In this document: one piece after another, positions 9,854-26,829 of the stretch
Layout of the letters: the number at the start of each line of letters is the position of its first letter
Position numbering within the stretch: the first letter of the stretch is position 1
Assembly (NCBI GenBank): GCA_937889595.1
Contig: CALAOR010000075.1
Coordinates: forward strand, 1-64,000
Length of the DNA: 64,000 nt
Origin: an uncultured bacterium
Lineage (GTDB): Bacteria > Oederibacteriota > PGYV01 > Palsa-1178
Direction: 5' to 3'
Made by a program: the position numbers and the translations under genes
Notes under the pieces: model-generated
Told to the model about the DNA's origin: nothing
Databases searched by the model: none
What the model saw: only the letters and a program-made list of their open reading frames with translations

Positions 9854-9882
9854 ATATTAGCAAATTGTGGGGGGTAAGTCAA
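9854..9882 (-). promoter_or_regulatory. Strong promoter of the 9.8-6.5 kb surface-protein operon
   Basis: Minus-strand TTGACT (9882-9877), 17 bp, TAATAT (9859-9854). The -10 box lies inside the perfect palindrome GCTAATATTAGC (9850-9861), so a dimeric regulator could occlude it. Confidence 0.75.
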
Positions 9883-9899
9883 TGTTTCACGATGAAAAA
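9883..9899. promoter_or_regulatory. TGTTTCA-N3-TGAAAAA operator candidate next to the -35 box
   Basis: This 17-bp near-palindrome abuts the -35 hexamer. It differs by one base from the perfect TGTTTCA-N3-TGAAACA site found upstream of dnaK (26782-26798). The shared motif at two promoters suggests a common regulator. Confidence 0.45.
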
Positions 9900-9922
9900 C
9901 ACGATTTCATTTCAATCGTGTT
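9898..9922. repeat. Perfect 9-bp hairpin
   Basis: AACACGATT and AATCGTGTT pair perfectly around a 7-nt loop. It lies between the operator candidate and the next repeat; it has no T-tract and so is not a clear terminator. Confidence 0.5.
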
Positions 9923-21182: not shown

Positions 21183-22346
21183 CTAAACATCCCACTTTTT
21201 GATCTTTGCCCAATTTTTTATGAGTTCTTTTTCTTCTTCGCTTTCGGCTTTTGGGGTTTCCACTTCAACCTGCACATAGAAGTTCCCTTTTTTTCCTGTC
21301 TTTATATTTTTCGCGCCGTGGCCCGACATCTTTATGCTCGTTCCACTTTGTATTCCCACGGGGATTTTTATTTCTATGTTCCCGTCCGGCGTCGGCACTT
21401 CCATGTGGCCGCCGAGTATGGCCTGCGCCATATTGACCTTCACGGAAAAATATACGTCGTCGCCTTTTCTTTCAAATGTATCGCTTTTTTCCACTTTGAA
21501 TATGACATACAGGTCGCCGCGTTCCTTGTTCCACGAACGCATGTTCCCTTCGCCTTTTATCCTTATTTTTTCGCCTTCCTTTACGCCCTCGGGTATGTGA
21601 ATGCGTATTTTCCTTATTTCCTGCGACTCGCCCGAGCCTTTGCATTCATGGCAAAAATCCGTGATAGTGGACCCTTTTCCGCCGCATCTCGGGCAGGTTT
21701 TATTGACCACAAATCCGCCCTGGGAAAACTGCATGGTCCCCGCGCCGTGGCACGCCTCGCATTGCGACACCTGCGCGCCGGGTTCCGCGCCCGTACCCCG
21801 GCACCGTGTGCAGTCGATCGCGCGCGGTACTTTGATTATGGTTTCCCCGCCTTCCATTGCAAGGGCAAAAGGTATCTCTATGCGTATGTTCACGTCCTCG
21901 CCTTTTGCGCCGCGGCCTTCCTGTGTATATTCAGCCTGCGAGAACCCGCGTTTCGGCCCCTGGTCAAAGAACATGTCAAACAAATCCTCAAACCCGCCGG
22001 CCTTGGAGCTCCCGCGGCCTGAAAAAATATCACCGAACATCTCGGAAAAATCCTGCCCCTGCCCCGCGCCCTGTGACGGCTGCCCGTGCCCCCTGCCCGC
22101 ATACTGTGAAAAATCAAAACCACGCGACTGGGCGTCCTTTAACTGCTCATACTTCGCGCGCTTTTCCTTATTGGTTAAGACCTCATATGCTTCGCTTATC
22201 TCTTTGAATTTTTCCTCGGCCGCCTTATTCCCGGGATTGGCGTCGGGATGATACTGCTTTGCAAGGCTGCGGAATGATTTTTTTATCGCAGCCTCATCCG
22301 CGCCCGGTGAAACGCCGAGAATTTTATAGTAATCTTTTATTGGCAT
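21183..22346 (-). CDS. dnaJ: Chaperone DnaJ
   Basis: 387 residues from ATG 22346 (MPIKDYYKIL), with GGGG upstream; the longer frame from 22379 adds an unlikely N-terminus. J-domain with HPD (KQYHPDANPGN), Gly/Phe-rich segment, and four CxxCxGxG zinc-binding repeats (CTRCRGTG, CEACHGAG, CPRCGGKG, CHECKGSG), then the two C-terminal substrate-binding domains. A full type I DnaJ that stimulates DnaK ATPase. It lies after groEL but beyond a terminator, so it probably has its own promoter. Confidence 0.95.
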   Translation of the reverse strand: MPIKDYYKILGVSPGADEAAIKKSFRSLAKQYHPDANPGNKAAEEKFKEISEAYEVLTNKEKRAKYEQLKDAQSRGFDFSQYAGRGHGQPSQGAGQGQDFSEMFGDIFSGRGSSKAGGFEDLFDMFFDQGPKRGFSQAEYTQEGRGAKGEDVNIRIEIPFALAMEGGETIIKVPRAIDCTRCRGTGAEPGAQVSQCEACHGAGTMQFSQGGFVVNKTCPRCGGKGSTITDFCHECKGSGESQEIRKIRIHIPEGVKEGEKIRIKGEGNMRSWNKERGDLYVIFKVEKSDTFERKGDDVYFSVKVNMAQAILGGHMEVPTPDGNIEIKIPVGIQSGTSIKMSGHGAKNIKTGKKGNFYVQVEVETPKAESEEEKELIKNWAKIKKWDV

Positions 22347-22453
22347 GTCATAACCCCTGAAAAAAATAGATTTTAACATCTTAAAAATTGCAAAGATCTT
22401 ATGATTCCATATTGTATATTTAGACGAATAAACTCCCTTTTTTGTTCCCGTTC

Positions 22454-22484
22454 AAAAAAGGGGGCGCGTTCATCACGCGCCCCC
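22454..22484 (-). terminator. Rho-independent terminator of the groESL transcript
   Basis: Minus strand: a 9-bp GC-rich stem (GGGGGCGCG paired with CGCGCCCCC) with a 7-nt loop, followed by six T. Confidence 0.85.
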
Positions 22485-22576: not shown

Positions 22577-24270
<1,694 letters not shown>

Positions 24271-24330: not shown

Positions 24331-24618
24331 TTACTCGATCACCGCCAGAACATCATCCTGCGTCATTATAAGGTATTCCACGTCGTCTATCTTAAATTCA
24401 TTTCCGCCGTATTTGGAATAAATAACCTTATCGCCCACTTTCAGTTCCATGGTGATTTTCTTTCCGTCATCGGCTGTCTTGCCCGTTCCAACCGCTGTTA
24501 CCTCGCCTTTGGACGGCTTTTCTTTTGCTGTGTCAGGGATGATGATTCCGCCCTTTTTTACTTCTCCCTCTTCCATGGGCTTTACTACGATGTGATCTCC
24601 TAACGGTCTCAATTTCAT
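24331..24618 (-). CDS. groES: Co-chaperonin GroES
   Basis: 95 residues, the standard length. MKLRPLGDHIVVKP start, mobile loop GGIIIPDTAKEKPSKGEV and the C-terminal DDVLAVIE are typical. Caps GroEL. GGAGGC lies upstream. 96 bp after dnaK; the gap holds a hairpin repeat and a possible TATAAT but no clear -35, so readthrough from dnaK is likely. Confidence 0.97.
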   Translation of the reverse strand: MKLRPLGDHIVVKPMEEGEVKKGGIIIPDTAKEKPSKGEVTAVGTGKTADDGKKITMELKVGDKVIYSKYGGNEFKIDDVEYLIMTQDDVLAVIE

Positions 24619-24714: not shown

Positions 24715-26652
24715 TTACTTTTCTTTCTTTTTCTTTTTATCCTCGTCAACCACTTCATACTCTGCATCAACCACGTCGTCGCCCGATTTCTTTTCTCCTG
24801 CCGGGTTCGGCCCCGCGTTCGGCCCTGCTCCCGGGGCGCCCTGGTCTTTCTTTGTGGCTTCATACATGGCGGTTGAAACTTTGTGCCACTTTTCAGTGAG
24901 CTTTTCCATCTGCTTCTTCAGGTCTTCGGTGTTGGCGCTGTTTTTCAGCATTTCCTTAAGCTTGTCGGACTGTTCCTGCAGTTCTTTTTTGTCCGCTTCA
25001 GGCACCTTGTCGCCGACTTCTTTCAGCGTCTTTTCCGCCTGGTATGTTATTGATTCAGCCTGGTTGCGGGTGTCCACCTCATCCCTTTTCTTTTTATCCT
25101 CATCGGAATGTTTCTCGGCTTCCTTTACTATTTTATCTATGTCGTCTTTTGACAGGCCTGACGAAGCGGTAATGGTTATTTTCTGTTCCCTGCCGGTCGC
25201 GTTGTCTTTTGCCTGCACGTGCAGTATGCCGTTCGCGTCTATGTCAAAAGTAACCTCGACCTGCGGTATGCCGCGCGGCGCCGGCGGTATGCCGTCCAGA
25301 TGGAACCTGCCTATAGTCTTGTTCTCGGTTGCCATGGAACGCTCGCCCTGGAGCACGTGTATTTCAACGCTTGTCTGGTTGTCAGACGCGGTAGAGAATG
25401 TTTCCGATTTTTTCGTGGGTATGGTCGTATTCCTGTCGATTAATCTTGTGAAGACCGACCCGAGCGTTTCAATGCCGAGCGACAGCGGGGTTACGTCGAG
25501 CAGGAGCACGTCTTTTACTTCGCCCTGCAGCACTCCAGCCTGTATTGCCGCGCCTACTGCCACGACTTCGTCCGGGTTCACGCCTTTGTGCGGTTCTTTG
25601 TTGAAAAGTTTCTTGACGAGTTCCACCACGGAAGGCATCCTGGTCATTCCGCCGACCAGGACCACTTCGTCTATGTCTTTCGGCTCCATGCCCGCGTCTT
25701 TCATGGCTTTCTTGCAGGGTTCGATGGTGCGTTCGTTTAAATCTCCTATTAACTGTTCAAGCTTTGCCCTGGTTAAATTCACGACCAGGTGTTTCGGGCC
25801 GGACGCGTCCGCAGTGATGAAAGGCAGGTTTATCTCGGACTGCATTGTGGAAGACAGTTCTATCTTTGCCTTTTCAGCCGCTTCTTTCAACCTCTGCAGC
25901 GCCACCCTGTCATTGCGCAGTTCTATGCCTTCTGATTTTTTGAATTCGTCCGCGAGCCAGTCCATTATCTTCTGGTCATAATCATCGCCGCCTAAGTGCG
26001 TGTCTCCATTGGTTGATTTTACCTCAAATACCCCGTCGCCTATCTCAAGTATGGATACGTCAAACGTGCCTCCGCCCAGGTCATATACGGCTATCTTTTC
26101 ATTTTTCTTTTTGTCAAGCCCGTAAGCCAGCGAAGCCGCGGTCGGCTCATTGATGATGCGCAGCACTTCAAGGCCGGCTATTTTTCCCGCGTCCTTTGTG
26201 GCCTGCCTCTGCGAGTCGTTAAAATAAGCAGGTACAGTGATGACAGCCTGTGTTACTTTTTCCCCCAGGTATGCTTCGGCGTCGGCTTTGAGTTTTCCGA
26301 GTATTATCGCCGATACTTCGGGAGGGCTGTAGCTTTTCCCGGAAATATCCACGTGCGCGTCGCCATTGGCTGACGGCGCCACTTTGTAAGGCACCTTTTT
26401 GAGTTCTTCCGTCACTTCGGAAAACTTCCTGCCCATAAACCGCTTGATAGAGAATATGGTATTTTCAGGGTTTGCCACAGCCTGCCTTTTTCCCGGCAGA
26501 CCCACTATCCTCTCTCCGGTCTTTGTAAAACCTATAACTGACGGAGTGGTCCTATTCCCCTCCGCATTCACGATAACCTTGGGCTCTTTGCCCTCCATTA
26601 CAGCAACGCATGAGTTTGTGGTTCCTAAATCAATTCCAATAACCTTAGCCAT
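24715..26652 (-). CDS. dnaK: Chaperone DnaK (Hsp70)
   Basis: 645 residues. N-terminal ATPase domain ([36 protein letters not shown]), substrate-binding domain, and an acidic/Lys-rich tail ([17 protein letters not shown]) with the conserved EVVD end buried before extra lysines. The alpha-helical lid includes the AAPGAGPN-like Gly/Pro spacer. Works with DnaJ (21.2 kb). grpE, the usual partner, is not in the window. GAGGAGG lies 7 bp before the ATG. Confidence 0.98.
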
Positions 26653-26744
26653 GTTAATTCCTCCTCATATAATAGACATATGTTAATTTCAACTTGGTTG
26701 ATGCCAGATATAGAGCAATAGGCGTGCCATGGAAAGTTAGCTAT

Positions 26745-26773
26745 ATTTTATTGGGGTTTAATTGGATAGACAA
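26745..26773 (-). promoter_or_regulatory. Sigma-70-like promoter of dnaK
   Basis: Minus-strand TTGTCT (26773-26768), 17 bp, TAAAAT (26750-26745). No CIRCE element and no sigma-32-type box is visible. Confidence 0.5.
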
Positions 26774-26781
26774 TAAGTCCG

Positions 26782-26829
26782 TGTTTCAATATGAAACATG
26801 TGTTGGCGTTGATGTTTAATTATGAAACA
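26782..26829. promoter_or_regulatory. Tandem TGTTTCA-N3-TGAAACA operators upstream of dnaK
   Basis: Two 17-bp palindromes: a perfect one (26782-26798) and one with a single mismatch (26813-26829). Their centres are 31 bp apart, about three helical turns, so both lie on the same DNA face. They stand 8 bp upstream of the -35 box, a place that fits an activator or a looping repressor. The second covers the stop codon of the small gene at 26816. Confidence 0.5.

Follow-up and report, generated by a model that had tools for sequence, protein, structure and literature searches.

The regulation of dnaK and groESL is usually ascribed to sigma-32 or to repressors (HrcA, HspR, CtsR), and HrcA with its operator CIRCE controls dnaK together with groES-groEL in many bacteria. 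Both dnaK and groES are normally essential genes. Sigma-54 polymerase cannot start by itself, and at E. coli glnA two NtrC sites lie about three helical turns apart. Sigma-54 at chaperone genes is already known elsewhere. Enhancer sites lie about 80–150 bp upstream of sigma-54 promoters (PMC4987338). Chlamydia hrcA-grpE-dnaK has tandem sigma-66 and sigma-54 promoters, and heat lowers rpoN expression in this organism (PMC8762339). In Bacteroidota and Planctomycetota, sigma-54 control is predicted, by enrichment, for GroEL, GroES, GrpE, DnaJ and DnaK, and sigma-54-dependent grpE and groES of B. thetaiotaomicron are cited in the same account (PMC12316311). The HsfBA-lonD system of Myxococcus places an NtrC-like regulator on a heat-shock gene, but it works through a kinase phosphorelay and its target is the Lon protease, not dnaK (PMC9109919).

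The window analysed here is a stretch of 64,000 nucleotides from the 3.42 Mb genome (G000, 93 contigs) of a Goldiibacteriota/FCPU426 relative, whose DnaK has its nearest named matches in candidate division FCPU426 (palsa_1178, 96%; bog_1181, 88%), the next matches including Candidatus Goldiibacteriota Gw_SlDig_bin_230 (79% identity). Its chaperone locus comprises the following features:

26813..26829, no strand: putative distal enhancer palindrome with one mismatch (TGTTTAATTATGAAACA; minus strand TGTTTCATAATTAAACA)
26782..26798, no strand: putative promoter-proximal enhancer palindrome, perfect TGTTTCA-N3-TGAAACA (minus strand TGTTTCATATTGAAACA)
26745..26773, minus strand: weak sigma-70-like hexamers TTGTCT-17-TAAAAT, a possible basal promoter
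26715..26729, minus strand: predicted sigma-54 promoter TGGCACGCCTATTGC, an exact consensus match, with an inferred transcription start near 26703
24715..26652, minus strand: dnaK (Hsp70; Pfam HSP70, E 1.3e-270)
24331..24618, minus strand: groES, the sole GroES match in G000
22597..24255, minus strand: groEL (Cpn60; Pfam Cpn60_TCP1, E 2.6e-82)
22460..22484, minus strand: terminator-like hairpin between groEL and dnaJ
21183..22379, minus strand: dnaJ (Pfam DnaJ, DnaJ_C), after the hairpin

A sequence-only reading of this DNA had reported two copies of TGTTTCA-N3-TGAAACA before the dnaK promoter, 31 bp apart on one face of the helix. Both are indeed present at 26782–26829, one of them exact and the other with one mismatch, and the 31-bp spacing is correct and corresponds to about three helical turns. 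At up to two mismatches the window holds three palindrome sites against a shuffle mean of 0.28, and none of 100 dinucleotide shuffles reached three. The pair does precede the promoter, but that reading missed that the conserved promoter is of the sigma-54 type: the palindromes start 69 and 100 bp upstream of 26729–26715, and their centres fall at about −87 and −118 relative to the inferred transcription start. Paired palindromes on one face, about 80–150 bp upstream, are the layout of an NtrC-type enhancer, and with its sigma-54 promoter and two sites about three turns apart the locus resembles the NtrC enhancer at glnA. The likeness extends to the site itself, as the E. coli NtrC box (TGCACCAnnnTGGTGCA) is also a 17-bp palindrome with 7-bp arms, an N3 centre and the skeleton TGnnnCA-N3-TGnnnCA, but the middle of the arm reads CAC in the NtrC box and TTT here (PMC8743547). 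The Salmonella PrpR enhancer (CGTTTCATGAAACG) shares the arms GTTTCA/TGAAAC and likewise serves a sigma-54 activator, whereas it is without the N3 centre and belongs to propionate genes, PrpR sensing 2-methylcitrate (PMC4987338). Between the palindromes and the sigma-54 promoter sits an AT tract, CC-TTTAAAAATA-AGG (window 26736–26756), which by eye recurs in several relatives (at the matching place in L043-L046) and is perhaps the site of a bending protein.

Sigma-54 promoters were scored against TGGCACG-N4-TTGC with GG and GC, the scan itself requiring GG and GC. Among the eight sigma-54-like sites of the window, the dnaK promoter has the top score, and it alone has a palindrome (up to three mismatches) in the 250 bp upstream. 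Across G000, matches to the consensus with at most one mismatch show no enrichment (45 sites versus 41 in the control). Thirty of the 45 sites were kept as loci and 20 passed a stricter score; as to further targets, a palindrome within three mismatches in the 250 bp upstream was found among these 20 only at dnaK. The genome encodes RpoN (C34:14083-14556, E 1.1e-46), which was detected in 39 of the 41 genomes searched, G000 included, but not in G009 and G010, perhaps owing to assembly gaps.

The comparison covered an order set of 14 genomes (G000 and 13 order-level relatives) and 27 genomes outside the order. Twelve dnaK upstream regions were readable in the order, those of G000 and 11 relatives, G009 and G012 being without a proper dnaK start. 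In all 12 a sigma-54 promoter with a score of at least 20.5 lies 54–108 bases before the start codon, and in 11 a palindrome is found at up to three mismatches; in the twelfth, that of G007, the contig ends 135 bases upstream of dnaK. At up to two mismatches there are 16 palindrome sites across 10 of the 12 regions; in 2000 rounds of dinucleotide shuffling the average was 0.021 and no round gave more than 2. A second copy stands 30–34 bp from the first in eight order genomes. The nearer palindrome starts 58, 67–69 or 88 bp before the promoter (11 genomes), distances that are about whole helical turns apart (R = 0.88 at 10.5 bp), although these spacing classes partly follow kinship and the genomes are not independent cases. 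Outside the order the promoter occurs in eight of the 25 genomes whose dnaK was read (G017, G018, G020, G028, G031, G034, G037, G040), six of which also have a palindrome within three mismatches, at more varied distances (about 280–300 bp from the promoter in G020); none within three mismatches was found upstream of dnaK in G017 and G037. In G002 a small ORF that by eye reads as STAS-like (anti-anti-sigma) lies upstream of dnaK (L192:1684-2067).

In the window dnaK, groES, groEL, the hairpin and dnaJ follow one another in one direction, and dnaJ is perhaps a separate transcription unit; terminator-like hairpins number 18 in the region against 9.6 expected. The best GroES match also adjoins dnaK in five other order genomes searched (G003, G004, G005, G010, G013), of which G013 has a second, weaker match. 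HrcA was found in none of the 14 order genomes, G000 included, whereas it was found in 15 of the 27 genomes outside the order; among 14 control genomes this search picked it up in 7. Nor does CIRCE (TTAGCACTC-N9-GAGTGCTAA) occur within five mismatches upstream of dnaK in G000, the best match in 3.3 kb around groES having seven mismatches; the earlier statement that this dnaK is without CIRCE thus holds. A CIRCE variant, TTAGCAGTC-N9-GACTGCTAA, lies near groES in the HrcA-bearing genomes G020, G028 and G037 (L352:1444, L353:1835, L356:1441), and in the sister families CIRCE was seen only at groES (3/3 genomes): at their HrcA-linked dnaK none was found within five mismatches in the 15 stretches read, which mostly leave the upstream of hrcA outside. 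Four genomes (G020, G028, G031, G037) carry two kinds of dnaK, one HrcA-linked and lacking the promoter, the other of the sigma-54 type with an adjacent activator; the order genomes show only the sigma-54 dnaK, apart from a divergent paralogue (in G000 at C76). In a DnaK tree built from 41 of 43 rows, two partial copies shorter than 240 aa having been dropped, the sigma-54-type dnaK genes do not come out as a single clade, those of f13 and f7 grouping with the HrcA-operon copies, so that we claim no single origin for them. HrcA, as a repressor, differs in kind. In this order the sigma-54 device apparently stands where HrcA/CIRCE stands elsewhere, and it may have replaced it. Chlamydia, which resembles the present case in having a sigma-54 promoter at dnaK, differs from it in retaining HrcA/CIRCE, in its activator AtoC and in the lowering of sigma-54 by heat (PMC8762339). 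The Bacteroidota and Planctomycetota case differs in concerning other phyla, and the available part of that article names no enhancer or activator (PMC12316311).

Candidates for the protein that may read the palindromes are the sigma-54 activators, or bacterial enhancer-binding proteins (bEBPs), of which G000 has seven full ones; an eighth, weak match reads like a ClpC-type ATPase. When the 91 activator ORFs of the 14 order genomes were grouped by reciprocal best hits, a single group, L096, was present in all 14:

G000 contig C20, 55946-57319 (L096:1039-2412), outside the window, minus strand: candidate activator with receiver-like domain, AAA+ domain and Fis-type HTH LGVSRSTLWRKMK

The groups L097, L099, L101 and L102, each in at most 11 of the 14 genomes, were set aside as activator, as was L100, which was not found in G001, G005, G010 and G013, all of them with the enhancer. 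L100 (L100:1075-2958 on G000 contig C66; 9/14 order genomes) has a zinc-ribbon-like start and TPR repeats before its AAA+ domain. L096 has the domains of a bEBP (Pfam Sigma54_activat, E 7.6e-74; HTH_8, E 1.7e-10), with GAFTGA in 12 of the 14 order proteins and GAFSGA and GAYSGA in the remaining two. Its receiver is degenerate (Pfam score 25.1, below the cut-off of 30.2): visual inspection shows the first acid missing from 13/13 receivers and the switch lysine from 5/13, with the acceptor aspartate kept. For this reason we do not file L096 as NtrC itself, from which the present case also differs in its chaperone targets and in that no kinase gene was seen beside L096 in G000; the degenerate receiver, moreover, speaks against simple control by a kinase. 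In 13 of the 14 order genomes the activator gene is immediately preceded by a TPR gene, while in G008 the contig starts inside the activator gene and this position is off the contig; together with the degenerate receiver, this neighbour suggests that L096 may answer to a signal other than a kinase.

In a tree of phylum activators, L096 falls together with phylum members in a single supported clade (100/99), the tree representing 18 of the 27 non-order genomes, two of the 20 phylum loci (G014, G034) being without an ORF and seven phylum genomes without a locus. The order members and the phylum clade all share the recognition helix LG(I/V)SRSTLWRK(M/I)K, as expected if the clade reads one motif. 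In G020, G028, G031, G037 and G040 a clade member precedes dnaK by 0.25–1.3 kb on the same strand, and all five of these activator-linked dnaK genes carry a sigma-54 promoter. No ORF of at least 70 aa is listed between activator and dnaK in G020 and G031; in G028 a small ORF, STAS-like by eye, stands there (L348:2275-2685). The named G020 record has what looks like an HtrA-type protease gene next after dnaK. Activator gene and dnaK are unlinked in G000. The correspondence is not complete: in G018 (89% complete) promoter and palindrome are present and a close activator match was not found, and a clade member without a sigma-54 promoter at the dnaK copies read occurs in G016, in G025 and in seven genomes of f8/f16, where the reading covered those other than G032 and G035. 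The f8/f16 clade member is receiver-less, 321–324 aa long and has a nearly identical HTH (L294, L296, L300-L303, L305). In 12 of the 14 order genomes the activator gene also has palindrome-like sequences (up to three mismatches) 147–226 bp ahead of it, but we rejected autoregulation, since by our reading of the frame they overlap the TPR-gene codons V-F/Y-H-F-K-T and L-S-E-N-E-T, and no sigma-54 promoter was seen at them; we take them as coding.

Two other readings of the dnaK upstream region were weighed. The palindromes could be a sigma-54 enhancer bound by another NtrC-type regulator, for instance the L098 group, which has a canonical receiver, occurs in 13 of the 14 order genomes and in G000 adjoins a histidine-kinase-like ORF. 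Yet L098 was not found in G008 (89% complete), which has a perfect palindrome and the sigma-54 promoter, and near the dnaK genes of relatives no full L098 match was found (one receiver-only match, L118) where L096 is matched at six loci in five genomes; we consider this reading quite unlikely. It is less probable still that an ordinary repressor or activator uses the palindromes as operators to act on TTGTCT-17-TAAAAT, with the sigma-54 match secondary. Such hexamers do exist in G000, but they match the consensus at only 9 of 12 positions and the region holds 13 such sites against 6.5 expected, whereas the sigma-54 promoter is conserved in 12/12 regions and the spacing of the palindromes tracks it by whole turns.

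We favour, with a probability of roughly 0.8, the reading that the palindrome pair is an enhancer for an NtrC-type activator, most likely L096, at a sigma-54 promoter that switches on dnaK-groES-groEL. Two dimers of this dedicated bEBP would occupy the pair as an upstream activating sequence. With the DNA looped and ATP hydrolysed, they would open the sigma-54 RNA polymerase stationed at 26729–26715 and so switch on dnaK-groES-groEL and perhaps dnaJ too. The proposal draws on what can be read from sequence: the site and the promoter, their conservation and phasing, the gene order, the candidate and its linkage to dnaK in relatives, and the search that found no HrcA. Binding of L096 to TGTTTCA-N3-TGAAACA is suggested by co-occurrence and linkage, and activation of the promoter is proposed with it. 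The signal may be heat or unfolded protein, heat being deduced from the genes controlled, and the TPR protein encoded just upstream of L096 may, speculatively, carry it; the lowering of rpoN expression by heat in Chlamydia implies that sigma-54 and heat induction need not go together (PMC8762339).

The sequence-only reading had further proposed that an unknown regulator may link heat shock with surface proteins, citing the missing CIRCE at dnaK and a third palindrome copy with one mismatch that abuts the −35 box of a surface-protein operon:

9883..9899, no strand: third palindrome copy TGTTTCACGATGAAAAA, one mismatch, role doubtful
9854..9882, minus strand: sigma-70-like promoter TTGACT-17-TAATAT, directly beside the third copy and kept in sister genome G001

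That a regulator other than HrcA acts at dnaK is very likely, but a single regulon is unsupported. The description of the site is accurate as read from the sequence: one mismatch, then TTGACT and 17 bases to TAATAT. G001 keeps the adjoining −35 and promoter and 15 of the 17 bases (two mismatches). One regulator could on this basis serve both dnaK and the surface-protein operon, the activator repressing or aiding the sigma-70 promoter at a true third site, and in G000 alone there are three off-dnaK palindromes at up to one mismatch versus none in the control. Over the 14 order genomes, however, the genome-wide scan went against the idea: at up to one mismatch there are 21 sites, 10 at dnaK and 11 elsewhere, and a reversed-pattern control gives 9 in all, so that off-dnaK sites are at about chance and a heat-shock/surface-protein regulon is not supported. 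The more distant homologues of G003 and G004 showed no upstream palindrome within three mismatches, and the third site is a single copy at a promoter of another class. We thus set aside the third site as part of one regulon with dnaK and judge shared control unlikely, although the partial conservation in G001 speaks the other way. At up to two mismatches G000 has 34 sites versus 9 for the reversed pattern, but 25 of the 34 are inside ORFs of at least 100 aa, the reversed control differs from the palindrome in dinucleotides, and the window-shuffle rate scaled up would give about 15 per genome. The palindrome is above all a dnaK element, to judge from these counts, and not the mark of a wide regulon; the third site may be that of some regulator, its tie to dnaK being resemblance alone. 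A larger inverted repeat, AACACGATT-N7-AATCGTGTT (window 9898–9922), adjoins it and is not conserved in G001.

In the literature searched, which partly covered the phylum names, nothing was found on sigma-54 control of this phylum's dnaK, and this enhancer, the dnaK-linked activator family and the swap from HrcA appear to be new. Normally essential dnaK and the sole groES appear to depend here on sigma-54 with an enhancer-bound, ATP-driven activator, and the finding puts forward a candidate regulator with its site, and a swap from HrcA that can be tested. We put forward only tentatively, at less than even odds, the broader idea that a pseudo-receiver sigma-54 activator with its upstream-encoded TPR protein, sensing the folding state and not a kinase, replaced HrcA for dnaK, groES and groEL across the whole order, and that sigma-54 enhancers at dnaK are more widely common and overlooked, with a second type (TGTGACA repeats) in Lentisphaeria and Verrucomicrobia. 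Sigma-54-like promoters precede dnaK in 13 of 68 named loci from other phyla, versus 0/68 on the reverse strand, a hint that sigma-54 promoters at dnaK recur across several uncultured phyla. These promoters stand upstream of dnaK in:

L117, L129, L130, L142, L152, L155, L160, L166, L169, L171, L181, L182, L183

Six of these loci (L166, L169, L171, L181-L183), from Verrucomicrobia, Lentisphaerae and two uncultured RUG records, have 3–4 TGTGACA-type repeats within 400 bases, where the 55 loci without the promoter average 0.05, the repeat pattern having been chosen after viewing the sequences; these repeats are perhaps a second type of enhancer.
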